From Pyrinomonadaceae bacterium (GTDB lineage Bacteria > Acidobacteriota > Blastocatellia > Pyrinomonadales > Pyrinomonadaceae), in contig JAICGZ010000017.1 of NCBI GenBank assembly GCA_025922875.1, positions 1 to 40,119 on the forward strand: a DNA stretch of 40,119 nt, read 5' to 3'. A model generated the notes under the pieces. It was not told the DNA's origin, made no database searches, and was given only the letters and a program-made list of their open reading frames with translations. Shown piece after piece: positions 6,022 through 26,028 of this stretch (positions are counted from its first letter, which is position 1; each line of letters starts with the position of its first letter). Position numbers and translations under genes: made by a program.

Positions 6022-7302
<1,281 letters not shown>

Positions 7303-21175: not shown

Positions 21176-22123
21176 TCAGTTGCGTTCGGCGGGCTCGAAG
21201 GCGATCAGTCTCGAGGCTGGATCAAAGGTGATTCGGAAGGGAAAGAGTGCTCCGCGGCCGAGGATGATCGGCGTTCCTGGCGCAACACCCGTTAACATGT
21301 CAGTCGGCACACGATTGAGCACCAACGAGCCAATACTGACGACCTGTGGCTCAATCCTGTGAGATTCCACTATTCCCCCGCCGAGGTCGTGAATCCTGTT
21401 GTCACTTCGCCGGTGATTTGACCCGACCACGCGTCCTCCATTCAACGCGAGGCCCAAACCCGATCCGGTATCAATTAGCGCTAATCGGCCGTCACCTAGT
21501 TTGACAAATGGGCGATCGCTGCCTGCTTCGCGCACCCAACGCACTACCGCGCCATCCTTTGGCACTTCCGTCACGCGCAAACGCAGATCGAACGCGCGTA
21601 ACTCGCGACTGGGCAGGTCAACTGTGTATCCAAGGGGACTGAACACTTCAGTCGGATCCAGCACTCCGTCAATTGATCCCGGCAGGCTTCCCACGACTGC
21701 CGCATTAAAGCTTCCGGGCAGATCATTGTTACTTCTGCCCAGCGCGAGCCTGGAAATATGTGCTTCCTGATCTGAAGAGATTGGCGAGGTGCTGAGGCCG
21801 CCCACCAGCGGGCGACGCGATTTTGCGACTCGTAACCCTGCTCGTTCGACAACGTTGCGGCTGATGAGCGAAACACCCGCGCCCGTATCAATCGCGAAGA
21901 CAAACGGCCCTGCGCCGTTTATCCATCCGTTTGCCAACAAGCCGCGACCGCGTTCCTCACGCAGCCGAATTGGCTGGACTGGGGTTATGTTGCCTCGTGT
22001 AACGTTGCTCCTGCTCTCGGTGCGCTGAACACGTTGATGGGCGATTCCTAATCCAGGAATCGCCCATGCAACCATTGCAACACTGAGAGTACTTAGAGCG
22101 ATAGCAAGTTTAGCTTTGCTCAC
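21176..22123 (-). CDS. Exported two-lobed retropepsin-like aspartyl protease
   Basis: Protein of 315 residues with an N-terminal hydrophobic helix (about 5-25), so periplasmic or membrane anchored. It carries two aspartyl-protease motifs: FVFAIDTGAG with Asp79 and ALIDTGSG with Asp218, each in a homologous half. Half one ends GVLDP...YTVDLPSRELRAFD; half two ends IILGRGALFPFRITFDPASR-LIAFEP, the usual strand after the flap. One chain can thus build the full active-site pair that retropepsins make by dimerising. GTG start, with AGAGGT ahead. It converges with pccB and lies 25 bases downstream of a glycine-zipper gene, likely in one transcript. Whether it is an active protease or a binding protein is not proven, but both Asp-Thr-Gly triads are intact. 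Confidence 0.87.
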   Translation of the reverse strand: MSKAKLAIALSTLSVAMVAWAIPGLGIAHQRVQRTESRSNVTRGNITPVQPIRLREERGRGLLANGWINGAGPFVFAIDTGAGVSLISRNVVERAGLRVAKSRRPLVGGLSTSPISSDQEAHISRLALGRSNNDLPGSFNAAVVGSLPGSIDGVLDPTEVFSPLGYTVDLPSRELRAFDLRLRVTEVPKDGAVVRWVREAGSDRPFVKLGDGRLALIDTGSGLGLALNGGRVVGSNHRRSDNRIHDLGGGIVESHRIEPQVVSIGSLVLNRVPTDMLTGVAPGTPIILGRGALFPFRITFDPASRLIAFEPAERN

Positions 22124-22148: not shown

Positions 22149-22709
22149 TTAGTAGTTCCGGTCGCGCTTGCGCAGCTTGTACGTCCACAAGGCCGAGCCA
22201 CCGGCGCCAGAGAGTGCACCGATTGCCGCACCCTTCTTACCACCGATCAAGCCACCGATAGCGGCGCCCGCACCCGTGCCCATCGCTACGGTCAGCTTAT
22301 CGCGATGTTTGTCCCAGAAGCTGCGTTTCCGCGGCTCATAGTTGTAGTAAACGCGCTGTGACGAGGCTCGACTACCTGAGTTTCGATAAACCACGCGAGT
22401 CGGAGCGCGTCTGGTGCTCGTTGCGCTCGTTGTGGTTCTCTGTTCGACTTGCGTCGCTGCGGCGAAGCCGTCGGCGAAGCCGGTCTTATATGCTGTCTGC
22501 TCGCCTGCTGTGTTGAACTCGCCCGGAACCAATTCATTGTTACTGGCTGTCTGTTCCGCAGCAACGGGCGTGGTTTGCGCAGCCTTCTGCGCTGTGGTGT
22601 TAGTTTCAGCCGTCGCCGGCTGAGATTTGGACATAACCAGCGCGCCGACCGAACCACCGATAAGGGCTGCAATCAAGGCCACTGGAAGTAATTTGTTAGT
22701 CATAATCAT
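22149..22709 (-). CDS. Glycine-zipper membrane protein
   Basis: About 186 residues. An N-terminal transmembrane helix or signal anchor (PVALIAALIGGSVGALVM), a long Ala/Thr/Gln-rich flexible part, a short helical motif GEQTAYKTGFADGFAAA, an Arg/Ser/Tyr-rich segment, and a C-terminal glycine zipper GTGAGAAIGGLIGGKKGAA with G-x-x-x-G spacing followed by a second helix. Such zippers form a tight hairpin in membranes (YMGG/Gly-zipper_2 style) and are common in envelope proteins. The start at 22709 is chosen because AAGGAG lies ten bases before it; an upstream in-frame start would add 13 Arg-rich residues with no ribosome site. The role is unknown; coupled to the aspartyl protease gene 25 bases downstream. 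Confidence 0.75.
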   Translation of the reverse strand: MIMTNKLLPVALIAALIGGSVGALVMSKSQPATAETNTTAQKAAQTTPVAAEQTASNNELVPGEFNTAGEQTAYKTGFADGFAAATQVEQRTTTSATSTRRAPTRVVYRNSGSRASSQRVYYNYEPRKRSFWDKHRDKLTVAMGTGAGAAIGGLIGGKKGAAIGALSGAGGSALWTYKLRKRDRNY

Positions 22710-22953
22710 CGCTCTGCTTCTCCTTGCAAAAGATCCAGTACGTCTCAAGTAGTGCTCCGTGCTGCAAGACCTATTCCTCTTTTGTCGGGTGATTTGAGAT
22801 GGCGGCTAACTGCCTGAGATTTTAGCAATCATCGCCGAAATTTCGACGCTGCAAGAAATTCACAAGACAATTCCAACGCTTCTGATCAAAATGCGGAAAT
22901 GTGAGTGTACCCGATATGGAAGCGCAGTATTCGATATCCGCAGTGGCTACTGG
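22710..22953. other. Gene-free stretch ahead of the glycine-zipper gene
   Basis: The space between the glycine-zipper gene and the next gene totals about 340 bases (22710-23050). Apart from a repeat at 22954-23029 it has no convincing open frame, RNA gene or strong promoter pair on either strand. The promoter for the leftward genes should lie here. Confidence 0.5.
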
Positions 22954-23050: not shown

Positions 23051-24346
23051 TTATGCTGCTCTTTGCGCGGGCTTGTCTTTCAAAAGCTCCAGGGCTTTCT
23101 TGAGTTGCAGATCTTCAGAAGCCGGTTTAGCTGCTGGCGCGGGCGTCGTCGCTTCTCGCTTCTCGTTCCCCACCTCCGGTTTGACGATCTCGTCGTCGTC
23201 ATTACCCGTCAATTCGTCAGGATCGACTGCTTCGGAGACTTCCGCCCCTTTAACCTCGACTGTCGGCGCCACACCGGAATGGGCGCGATCTTCGCCAAGA
23301 AATGTTTTTCCATTTGCACTTGCCCACTTGATGGTCGTCAACAAGAGACCGTCACCGCCGCGCAATGAAAAGAGTTGCTGTTCGGTGCCGGCGCCAAAAC
23401 TCTTCTCGCCGACAACCTGGCCCCGGTTTCGATCCAACAGCGCGGATGCAACCACTTCAGCCGCTCCGGCCGTCCCGATGTCGATCAACGCCACGACCGG
23501 TCCCGAAAAGATCGTTGCCTTCGGGTCAGCCGTAAAGGTCTTCAACGCCTTTCCTTCACGTCCGATCGTCTGAGCGATGACGCCGTCTTTAATGAACAGG
23601 TTCGCGACCGCCACGGCTTCCGGCAAAGATCCACCGGCTGTGTCGCGCAGGTCAACGACAATCTTCTGCGCACCCTGCTTGACGAGATCCTGAAGACGTG
23701 TACGTGCCTCGGCAGCTTCGCCATCAGCAAAGCTGTTGATTCTCAGAATGCCGACGCGTCCGGCTTCCATGCGAGCTTCTGCGGCCGCGGCGCGCGACGA
23801 CCCGCGTTTTACGCTTATCGTCAGCGGCGTGGTATTCGCTCTCAACACCCGGAGCTTGACTTCACTTCCCGCAGGCCCGTTGAGTAGTTGTTTTGCGTCG
23901 TAAAGAGAGATGTCTCGCGTGGCCTTGGTATCGATGTACTCGATGATGTCTCCCGCTTTGAGCCCGGCCTGGTCGGCCGGCGACCCCTTCATGGGAGCAA
24001 TGATGTAAAGATAGGACGCGTATTGCGATAGCTCGGCACCGATGCCGGTCTGATTCTCTTTGTTACCGGCGTTAAACTCGCGCACCTGCTCGGGCGTGAG
24101 ATAGGTCGAGTAAGGATCGAGACCATAGGCAAGACCGCGTAGCGCGCCTGCCCGAACCTTATCCATATTTGGCTCATCTACGTAATCGTTCTGAATGTGC
24201 TGCAGCACGCTCTCGAAAATACGTAACTGTGCATTTGGGTCATTGGCCGGCTGTTGCGCGCGCGTGGAAATCCACCCGCCGACAGCCGTGTATAGAGTTA
24301 GGGTTGCAGATAGCAGAGTAAGGATGAACTTGGTACGAAATGACAT
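23051..24346 (-). CDS. S41/CtpA-like protein with PDZ domain, catalytically degenerate
   Basis: Exported protein of 431 residues with the layout of C-terminal processing proteases: signal anchor (1-30), N-terminal helical cap, PDZ domain (about 98-180), then the S41 core. The nucleophile signature normally reads G-S/T-A-S-A-S-E; here it is GTAGAAE, so the catalytic Ser is Gly294. The general-base signature T-F-G-K-G is SFGAG, so the Lys is Ala319. Both changes were checked in the nucleotide sequence. Flanking parts are well kept (DLRDTAGGSLPEAVAVA and RGQVVGEKSFG), as in a stable fold. The C-tail is acidic then Ala/Pro rich. It is most likely a pseudoprotease acting by PDZ binding, for example as an adaptor for another envelope protease. 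AGGTAGG precedes the ATG. Confidence 0.88.
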   Translation of the reverse strand: MSFRTKFILTLLSATLTLYTAVGGWISTRAQQPANDPNAQLRIFESVLQHIQNDYVDEPNMDKVRAGALRGLAYGLDPYSTYLTPEQVREFNAGNKENQTGIGAELSQYASYLYIIAPMKGSPADQAGLKAGDIIEYIDTKATRDISLYDAKQLLNGPAGSEVKLRVLRANTTPLTISVKRGSSRAAAAEARMEAGRVGILRINSFADGEAAEARTRLQDLVKQGAQKIVVDLRDTAGGSLPEAVAVANLFIKDGVIAQTIGREGKALKTFTADPKATIFSGPVVALIDIGTAGAAEVVASALLDRNRGQVVGEKSFGAGTEQQLFSLRGGDGLLLTTIKWASANGKTFLGEDRAHSGVAPTVEVKGAEVSEAVDPDELTGNDDDEIVKPEVGNEKREATTPAPAAKPASEDLQLKKALELLKDKPAQRAA

Positions 24347-24466
24347 TTACCTACCTCTTCGATTACGTTAGAGCCCGGACCAAAACAAAGATCGCGCTAA
24401 TTGCGAATCGAACCGTATGATACAGGCGGCATTTACGGGGTGCAAGCCAAAGCTTTCTGGATTCTA

Positions 24467-24949
24467 GTGAATAAAAACAACGATCAGTTAAGTCCTGCTG
24501 GGCCGGTTCTCGCGCTCGATCTTGGCCAAAAGCTTGTCGGTGCCGCGATATCGGACGAACGGCTGGTGACAACGAAACGGCTGCCACCACTCAAGCGCTC
24601 GAATTGGAAAAAACTACTTCAGGACGTGCGGCACTTGATTGAACGCTTTGACGCCCAAACAATAGTGGTTGGTTTGCCGTTGAGACTGGATGGAACGGCC
24701 GGCGATGCGGCAAGAGAGGTTCGTCGCCTGGCCACCAACCTGGCTAGATCAGTAGAGCAACCGGTTTATCTACAGGACGAGCGCTTGACTTCGTTCGAAG
24801 CCACAGCGAATTTAAAGGCGGAAGGTATTAAGCCCGACGATATTCCCGCACTCGTAGACGGCGAAGCGGCAGCGATGATCCTGCGAGACTTTCTCCAGGC
24901 CAATCAGGAACGAATTCGCGTCCTATCTGACACGACGATACAAGAATGA
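24467..24949 (+). CDS. ruvX: Holliday-junction resolvase-like RuvX (YqgF)
   Basis: RNase H-like nuclease family protein of about 160 residues, linked in bacteria to 16S pre-rRNA 5' end processing. The core begins VLALDLGQKLVGAAISDE with the first active-site Asp, IVVGLPLRLDGT holds the second strand, and YLQDERLTSFEATANL and DIPALVDGEAAAMIL hold the remaining acidic residues. The open frame reaches back to 24401, but the extra 22 residues are unlike the family and overlap the probable promoter space of the divergent S41-like gene, so the GTG at 24467 is preferred. It overlaps mltG by four bases (ATGA), the usual ruvX-mltG arrangement. Confidence 0.88.
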   Translation: MNKNNDQLSPAGPVLALDLGQKLVGAAISDERLVTTKRLPPLKRSNWKKLLQDVRHLIERFDAQTIVVGLPLRLDGTAGDAAREVRRLATNLARSVEQPVYLQDERLTSFEATANLKAEGIKPDDIPALVDGEAAAMILRDFLQANQERIRVLSDTTIQE

Positions 24950-26028
24950 AACGGCTAATACTTCTGCTAATCGTGCTCGGCATCCTTGCCGTGGCAGCTC
25001 TCGGGTTCTGGACCTACTCTGATTTGCGTAAACCAGTGGCTCATGCCAAGTCCGGTCAGTACATCGAGATTCCCAAAGGATCGTCGCCATCAGCAATAAT
25101 CAGGAAATTGGCGGCGGAAGGAGTGCTCAAACACGAGTGGCCCTTAAAGCTTTACCTTAAGAGCACCGGAGCGGGCAGCACACTGAAGGCCGGCGAATAT
25201 GACTTTCCCTCACCCATCTCCCCGCTCAGCGTGCTGGCGAAACTTCAGCAGGGCCAGCGGCGGCTGAACCGCCTGACCATCATCGAAGGCTGGACTCGTT
25301 GGGACATCGCGCGCGCAATGACTCAGGTTCCCGAGTTCGGCCTCAGCGGAGAAGCTCAAGCATTAGAGTTAATGAATAACGTGAGCCTCATTAGCGATAT
25401 CGATCCGGAAGCCAGGAACCTCGAAGGCTATCTCTTCCCCGACACCTACGAGTTCTCTCCTGAGACGACGCCCGCTCAATTGATAGAAATGATGGTGAAG
25501 CGCTTTCGCGAGGTCTGGAAACCCGATTGGAGCGAACGGGCGCGAAGCATGAACTATTCGCCGCGGCAGATCGTCACGATCGGTTCATTAATCGAAACTG
25601 AGGCTAAGCTTGATGAGGAGCGCCCGCTGGTGGCTTCCGTGATCTACAACCGCTTGCAAAAGGACATCCCACTCGCCGTTGACTCGAGCATCATTTACGC
25701 CTCGAAGCTTGAAGGAAAGTGGCGCTATGACGGGAAGGTCTACCTGAGCGACATTCAACGACGATCACCATATAACACTCGAATCTACGCAGGGCTGCCG
25801 CCTGGACCAGTCGCTTCGCCCGGAGAGAGTTCGTTAAAGGCTGCTTTGAACCCAGTCACCACGGATTTTCTCTACTACGTTCGTAATCCGGATCGTGACG
25901 ATGGTGCTCACAACTTCTACAGCAATGGCGCTGACTTTGAGATGGGTGTTCAGGCATTGCGGAGGTGGGAACGTGAGCGCGATGAGGAAGAAGCGCGAAA
26001 GAAACGCGAAGCAGGGTTACAGGATTAA
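24946..26028 (+). CDS. mltG: Endolytic transglycosylase MltG
   Basis: Membrane-anchored lytic transglycosylase that cuts nascent peptidoglycan strands and sets their length. 360 residues: an N-terminal transmembrane helix (2-23), a LysM-like segment (about 38-105, QYIEIPKGSSPSAIIRKL), and the YceG catalytic domain with NLEGYLFPDTYEF, the catalytic Glu in IGSLIETEAKLDEERP, VIYNRLQKDIPLAVDSS, and the family ending NTRIYAGLPPGPVASPG. The very last codons and the TAA stop lie in an ACAGGATT-family repeat. The charged tail DEEEARKKREAGLQD may thus be lineage specific. Overlaps ruvX upstream by four bases. Confidence 0.95.
   Translation: MKRLILLLIVLGILAVAALGFWTYSDLRKPVAHAKSGQYIEIPKGSSPSAIIRKLAAEGVLKHEWPLKLYLKSTGAGSTLKAGEYDFPSPISPLSVLAKLQQGQRRLNRLTIIEGWTRWDIARAMTQVPEFGLSGEAQALELMNNVSLISDIDPEARNLEGYLFPDTYEFSPETTPAQLIEMMVKRFREVWKPDWSERARSMNYSPRQIVTIGSLIETEAKLDEERPLVASVIYNRLQKDIPLAVDSSIIYASKLEGKWRYDGKVYLSDIQRRSPYNTRIYAGLPPGPVASPGESSLKAALNPVTTDFLYYVRNPDRDDGAHNFYSNGADFEMGVQALRRWERERDEEEARKKREAGLQD

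Follow-up and report, generated by a model that had tools for sequence, protein, structure and literature searches.

Locus and protein architecture

The subject of this analysis is a gene for an S41 protein related to CtpA, a carboxyl-terminal processing protease (CTP), situated on a 40,119 nt stretch of DNA from a Pyrinomonadaceae bacterium (phylum Acidobacteriota; assembly GCA_025922875.1, contig JAICGZ010000017.1, positions 1 to 40,119), which as a whole is referred to as the window. The encoded protein has the fold of the S41 C-terminal processing peptidases, i.e., an N-terminal dimerization region (NDR), a PDZ domain, the cap/core, and a C-terminal helix, and is matched by the profiles PF03572 (124 bits, cut-off 24), PDZ_6 (46.4 bits), and TIGR00225 (prc, C-terminal processing peptidase; 236.6 bits, cut-off 218.6). 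This agrees with an earlier note on the same DNA, according to which PDZ and fold-defining segments remain. The protein comprises the following features:

23051..24346, minus strand: coding sequence of the degenerate CtpA/S41 protein, 431 aa, ATG start (open reading frame list; Pfam; TIGRFAM)
24257..24346, minus strand: residues 1-30, probable signal peptide or signal anchor (sequence by eye; AF2 helix 3-30)
24062..24229, minus strand: residues 40-95, NDR (extent drawn from the alignment; name after PMC11021448)
24110..24112, minus strand: Tyr79, replacing the accessory catalytic His of LDPHS (alignment; codon read)
23789..24061, minus strand: residues 96-186, PDZ domain with GIGA as carboxylate-binding loop at 101-104 (PDZ_6 match; likeness to Gly113-Ala116 of CtpB, PMC3808539)
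23465..23467, minus strand: Gly294 (GGA), replacing the catalytic Ser (phmmer alignment; codon read)
23390..23392, minus strand: Ala319 (GCC), replacing the catalytic Lys (phmmer alignment; codon read)
23378..23380, minus strand: Gln323, third triad residue, kept (alignment; Gln in 151 of 185 other orthologues)
23075..23113, minus strand: residues 412-424, C-terminal helix (AF2 helix 413-423; aligned with the C-terminal stretch of Pseudomonas aeruginosa CtpA)

The N-terminus is a probable signal peptide or anchor, judged by eye from a hydrophobic stretch and from TRA-QQ at residues 28-32. The role of the C-terminal helix in P. aeruginosa CtpA is covered by PMC8764530.

Loss of the catalytic dyad

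Alignment with P. aeruginosa CtpA (7rpq) by phmmer is free of gaps across both catalytic motifs, GSASAAE facing GTAGAAE and SFGKG facing SFGAG. Consequently, Ser302 of the P. aeruginosa protein corresponds to Gly294 and Lys327 to Ala319, with a spacing of 25 residues in both proteins; together with the codons this confirms the two replacements reported in the earlier note. The Ser-Lys dyad of the S41 C-terminal processing peptidases is absent from the window protein. In P. aeruginosa, S302A or K327A singly abolishes CtpA activity in vivo (PMC11021448). Tyr79 stands at the site of the accessory His (His84 in P. aeruginosa, His85 in Helicobacter pylori) and Gln331 of P. aeruginosa is retained as Gln323, neither His nor Gln being essential in P. 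aeruginosa CtpA (PMC11021448).

Profile scores do not separate degenerate from active proteins (active loci reach 310-324 bits, more than some degenerate copies), so that the residues were read individually. A single accident or a sequencing error could be ruled out by near relatives having the same loss, and an alignment artefact by the intact Ser and Lys of active acidobacterial CTPs under the same alignment. Outside the Acidobacteriota, sampling covered a single further phylum (140 genomes), that of L060 (Polyangiaceae), which we take to be Myxococcota; all 10 loci read from it have Ser and Lys intact under this alignment. Sequence and published mutants taken together make it very likely that the gene product is a catalytically dead CtpA-type protease, i.e., a pseudoprotease. 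The genome harbors 10 S41 matches in total, among them L001 and L002 with intact Ser and Lys motifs.

Distribution in the Acidobacteriota

A total of 242 distinct S41 proteins was collected, 46 with both Ser and Lys, 193 not having both, and three (L282, L060, and L284) with a gap at the catalytic site, which were set aside. Exclusion of L004-L008, L234, and L285 (proteins of a different S41 kind or with a questionable alignment) and of the window protein from the 193 left 185 other orthologues; the alignment is weak for some deep copies (L286, 85 bits). As the set was presorted in this way, none of its members has both residues by definition, L239, a clade member possessing both, being set apart, and independent support has to come from trees calculated without the catalytic columns. 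At position 294 the 185 orthologues have Gly (165), Ser (5), or other residues (15), and at position 319 Ala (65), Lys (1), or one of 16 other residues. Ser294 is missing in 180, Lys319 in 184, and both are missing in 179, while Gln323 is found in 151 and His79 in 3. On the level of alignment rows, His at site 79 occurs in 25 of 26 active versus 2 of 87 degenerate rows.

A degenerate copy was detected in 73 of the 83 family codes, and besides in f18, f37, f81, and part of f29; f9, f30, f32, f60, f70, and f83 gave no clear degenerate copy in the genomes examined, L282 of f70 being gapped at the Lys site. Many deeper lineages combine an active CTP of ~500-720 aa with a degenerate copy of ~400 aa. 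Within the family of the window, 112 of 119 genomes contain an orthologue, whole or partial, of at least 49% identity, and for the remaining seven assemblies the listed completeness is 75-91%.

The Gly/Ala pair itself, considered in the earlier note as a possible mark of a conserved clade, is usual in this family (35 of 42 orthologues; Ala/Ala in 3, Gly/Ser in 3, Gly/Met in 1), with L087, L088, and L090 bearing Ala at 294. It is present in 9 of 18 orthologues from other families of the class; beyond, the pair does not hold, since Gly294 mostly stays and position 319 accepts almost any residue. A contig scan, which picked up close relatives only (50 loci), gave Gly294 throughout the Blastocatellia loci L011-L039, with Ala319 except for Ser in L033, and Gly294 combined with Leu319, Ser319, or Thr319 in the loci of Terriglobia and Acidiferrales. 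Lys at 319 occurred in none of 60 loci fetched across the phylum.

Phylogeny and the f29/f43 exception

In trees computed with the catalytic columns excluded, degenerate and active rows are split by one branch, with support 100 in a quick tree (87 versus 27 rows, without L004, L233, L234, and L228) and 100/100 in a careful tree (52 versus 25 rows, L239 among the 52). The active rows of the latter stem from Acidobacteriota, the phylum of L060, Alphaproteobacteria, and Bacteroidota, and a few active comparators originated from a plasmid search. The trees are unrooted, the term clade thus assuming a root on the active side, and their inner branching order is weak. As far as can be judged from these comparisons, the degenerate CtpA is not a local event but an old clade that most of the sampled acidobacterial families contain.

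The families f29 and f43 deviate from this picture. Four of six f29 copies (L239, L289, L291, and L292) have Ser, Lys, and Gln, whereas L290 has Gly and Lys and L293 Gly and Arg; L223 of f43 has Gly and Lys, and the accessory His is replaced in all f29 and f43 copies read. It is consequently too strong to call the entire clade dead. The statement that all members lack both residues is ruled out, as five orthologues have Ser without Lys and one has Lys without Ser, in addition to the four f29 copies having both. Constraining f29/f43 to group with the active proteins was not rejected (p-AU 0.137, in a tree without five long-branch rows), and the free tree requires two changes of the dyad. The two families may therefore be relics, with reversal or several losses also being possible; the series of residues possibly reflects steps in the loss of catalysis.

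The four f29 copies with Ser, Lys, and Gln, together with the Gln323 shared by most orthologues, are also what speaks for continued proteolysis, either through relocated catalytic residues or by a mechanism relying on Gln323. We regard this as very improbable, given that 45 aligned sequences of two classes contain no invariant Lys, His, or Cys that could stand in, by sequence comparison only, and that loss of either dyad residue alone inactivates CtpA in P. aeruginosa.

Selection and shift of constraint

The gene evolves under low dN/dS, with a median of 0.086 over 31 pairs of relatives with dS <1.5, the pairs being non-independent as they share branches; the window's own pairs are saturated (dS 1.8-2.8) and were not used. 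Among the matches listed, orthologue frames are open, internal stops being confined to G016 and G084 (one TAA each). Decay of a gene without function, to which the lost catalytic residues and the greater variability of PDZ and core relative to active CTPs could be attributed, is hardly conceivable against this low dN/dS, the open frames, and the retention in most sampled families. Purifying selection and retention show a conserved function of the degenerate CtpA.

Comparison of mean column entropies, which is relative only because the degenerate and active sets differ in depth, revealed an equally constrained NDR (2.02 degenerate versus 2.05 active). The PDZ-loop Gly103 is present in 86 of 87 degenerate rows. 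Near-fixed in active CTPs yet free in the degenerate set are Lys319, His79, the aromatic residue at 99, and Arg/Lys at 156. The latter two align with Phe105 and Arg162, which are switch residues in H. pylori CtpA, and the relaxed sites altogether are catalytic or switch sites (PMC11021448, PMC12749690, PMC3808539).

Gene neighborhood

The following genes lie near the degenerate CtpA in the window:

24401..24949, plus strand: ruvX, divergently transcribed neighbor (PF03652)
24946..26028, plus strand: mltG, endolytic transglycosylase, 3' of ruvX (PF02618, TIGR00247)
22149-22748, minus strand: protein with a weak glycine-zipper match (weak profile match)
21176-22123, minus strand: retropepsin-like aspartyl protease (PF13650)

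In P. aeruginosa, ctpA lies in the operon envC-ctpA-PA5135, with PA5135 as orthologue of yibQ/sddA (PMC12569750), whose product is a septal denuded-strand deacetylase in Escherichia coli (PMC12440217). A Ruegeria record shows the order gpmI-M23-S41, and M23, S41, and yibQ are found together in Shinella. In the Acidobacteriota, an M23 gene (EnvC-type) lies directly upstream of the degenerate CtpA in 45 of 177 loci from 41 family codes (including the remnant in L161) and yibQ downstream in 43 of 177, with both in 22 loci. Neighbor examples were Pfam-checked, and the M23 model was built from four Pfam-checked M23 domains; M23 neighbors in L157 and L165 were dropped, as a first EnvC model had also matched antisense or cut frames. 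Beside active acidobacterial CTPs, neither M23 nor yibQ was found in any of the 28 loci with enough flank for each side (30 read; L239 not counted). Judging from gene order, the slot of the working protease in the envC-ctpA-yibQ locus is in many acidobacterial lineages held by the degenerate copy.

The window itself does not display this order, M23 upstream and yibQ downstream. A divergent ruvX upstream is shared by 77 of 177 orthologous loci; of the 45 ruvX loci having at least 1.8 kb of upstream DNA, 37 also contain mltG on the far side of ruvX. In L162, L164, and L169, mltG-ruvX is divergent from M23 and the degenerate CtpA, and L161 shows at about 7115-7178 a 21-residue M23 scrap between ruvX and the degenerate CtpA, which looks like the trace of a lost envC. 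These four loci suggest that the window arrangement derives from an mltG-ruvX/M23-ctpA-type locus by loss of envC and yibQ.

In f15 (L138, L139, L141, L143, L145, L146, and L176) a PBP1-type transglycosylase/transpeptidase gene, Pfam-checked in L143, follows next downstream. Neighbors outside the operon, mltG and the PBP1-type gene, are also cell-wall genes.

Proposed role and comparison with known systems

The phylum-wide degenerate clade, the open frames, the low dN/dS, and the conserved gene order lend good support to selection for a non-proteolytic role, as the earlier note had suggested; PDZ-based recruiting or a decoy, named there as examples, are candidate roles. We slightly favor the view that the degenerate CtpA acts as a non-cleaving regulator of the cell wall. 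The protein, very likely unable to cleave and kept by selection for a conserved function, would be exported to the periplasm and form a dimer or oligomer, as its N-terminus, the kept NDR, and the C-terminal helix indicate. The PDZ domain and cage might bind C-termini or unfolded tails of proteins, which the kept loop suggests and the lost Arg weakens. From the neighboring genes, peptidoglycan hydrolysis would be the target, with hydrolases or their activators being held, recruited, or shielded, uncut. Cell-wall opening would hence be regulated by binding, in contrast to the degradation that CTPs carry out in P. aeruginosa and E. coli.

Several observations weigh against this view. Ser, Lys, and Gln are kept by four of the six f29 genomes, as described above. 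Core and PDZ are looser than in active CTPs (entropy 2.24 versus 1.47 and 2.25 versus 1.60, respectively). Asn156 occupies the site of the sensor Arg168 of CtpB, in which R168A/F weakens peptide binding 3-5 fold (PMC3808539), and PDZ binding may thus be weaker or different. The window genome (assembly 93.5% complete) yielded no PF04748 (YibQ/SddA) match, and no M23 gene adjoins its degenerate CtpA, four M23 matches lying elsewhere; the operon link is therefore at best ancestral in this genome. Furthermore, 41 of 185 orthologues have none of the three marker neighbors (144 have one), partly owing to short flanks.

Characterized CTPs differ in several respects. CtpA of P. aeruginosa, which we take to be PA5134, is active and has the partner LbcA, whereas the window protein has lost Ser and Lys, has its His replaced and the switch Phe/Arg sites relaxed, and is without the operon partners. 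H. pylori CtpA is an active protease activated without an adaptor, and its triple catalytic mutant still forms hexamers and holds peptide (PMC12749690), so that a dead CtpA should be able to assemble and hold peptide as well. CtpB of Bacillus subtilis is active, possesses the Arg168 sensor, and dimerizes differently at the C-terminus; the GIGA loop of the window protein resembles its carboxylate loop (PMC3808539).

A further candidate role is that of a regulatory subunit, which would join an active CTP from the same cell in mixed dimers or hexamers, controlling it like the resting subunit of a CtpA dimer. Active CTPs are indeed present alongside the degenerate copy, its NDR is kept, and one subunit per N-dimer is active in CtpA of P. 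aeruginosa and H. pylori (PMC11021448, PMC12749690). We nevertheless consider this unlikely, because the active acidobacterial CTPs of ~500-720 aa belong to another branch, were not found adjoining the degenerate copy, and differ in the N-terminal motif.

The fold search also returned IRBP/RBP3, an animal S41-fold protein that is not a protease, has no PDZ domain, and binds retinoid. By analogy, the old active-site cleft of the degenerate CtpA might be reused for a small or non-peptide ligand; this appears less likely still, as the PDZ loop and the gene order favor proteins and cell-wall components as partners and position 319, part of this site, tolerates nearly any residue. In other protease families, bacterial MamO and the animal iRhoms have kept a protease fold for a non-proteolytic job (PMC4794232, PMC3149277).

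With regard to the non-cleaving regulator, a more specific history can be offered tentatively, although we hold it to be somewhat less likely than not: the CtpA encoded in the division operon envC-ctpA-yibQ would have turned non-cutting either before the Acidobacteriota diversified or at an early stage of that process and would since then have served as periplasmic PDZ scaffold or adaptor, controlling septal peptidoglycan hydrolases without proteolysis, with f29 as a surviving step. Our literature search, which covered few subscription papers, brought up no report of a CtpA pseudoprotease for the Acidobacteriota, nor did we encounter a non-proteolytic scaffold use of a CTP for any bacterium. 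The best-known task of bacterial CTPs is to degrade cell-wall hydrolases; that most of the sampled acidobacterial families retain a dead CtpA, in many cases beside the genes where others have a live one, would imply a function without need for cutting. Such a function may exist in active CtpAs, too, e.g., in the resting subunit of each dimer. The cut-off of a model named C-terminal processing peptidase, TIGR00225, is passed by a protein without the catalytic residues.

Additional recurring neighbors

The genes with the PF13650 and glycine-zipper matches, downstream of the degenerate CtpA and in the same direction, recur in near relatives. In L043, L047, L049, L052, L054, L056, and L059, the genes upstream presumably encode an RDD-like membrane protein and an LptD-like protein, names assigned from the look of the sequence.
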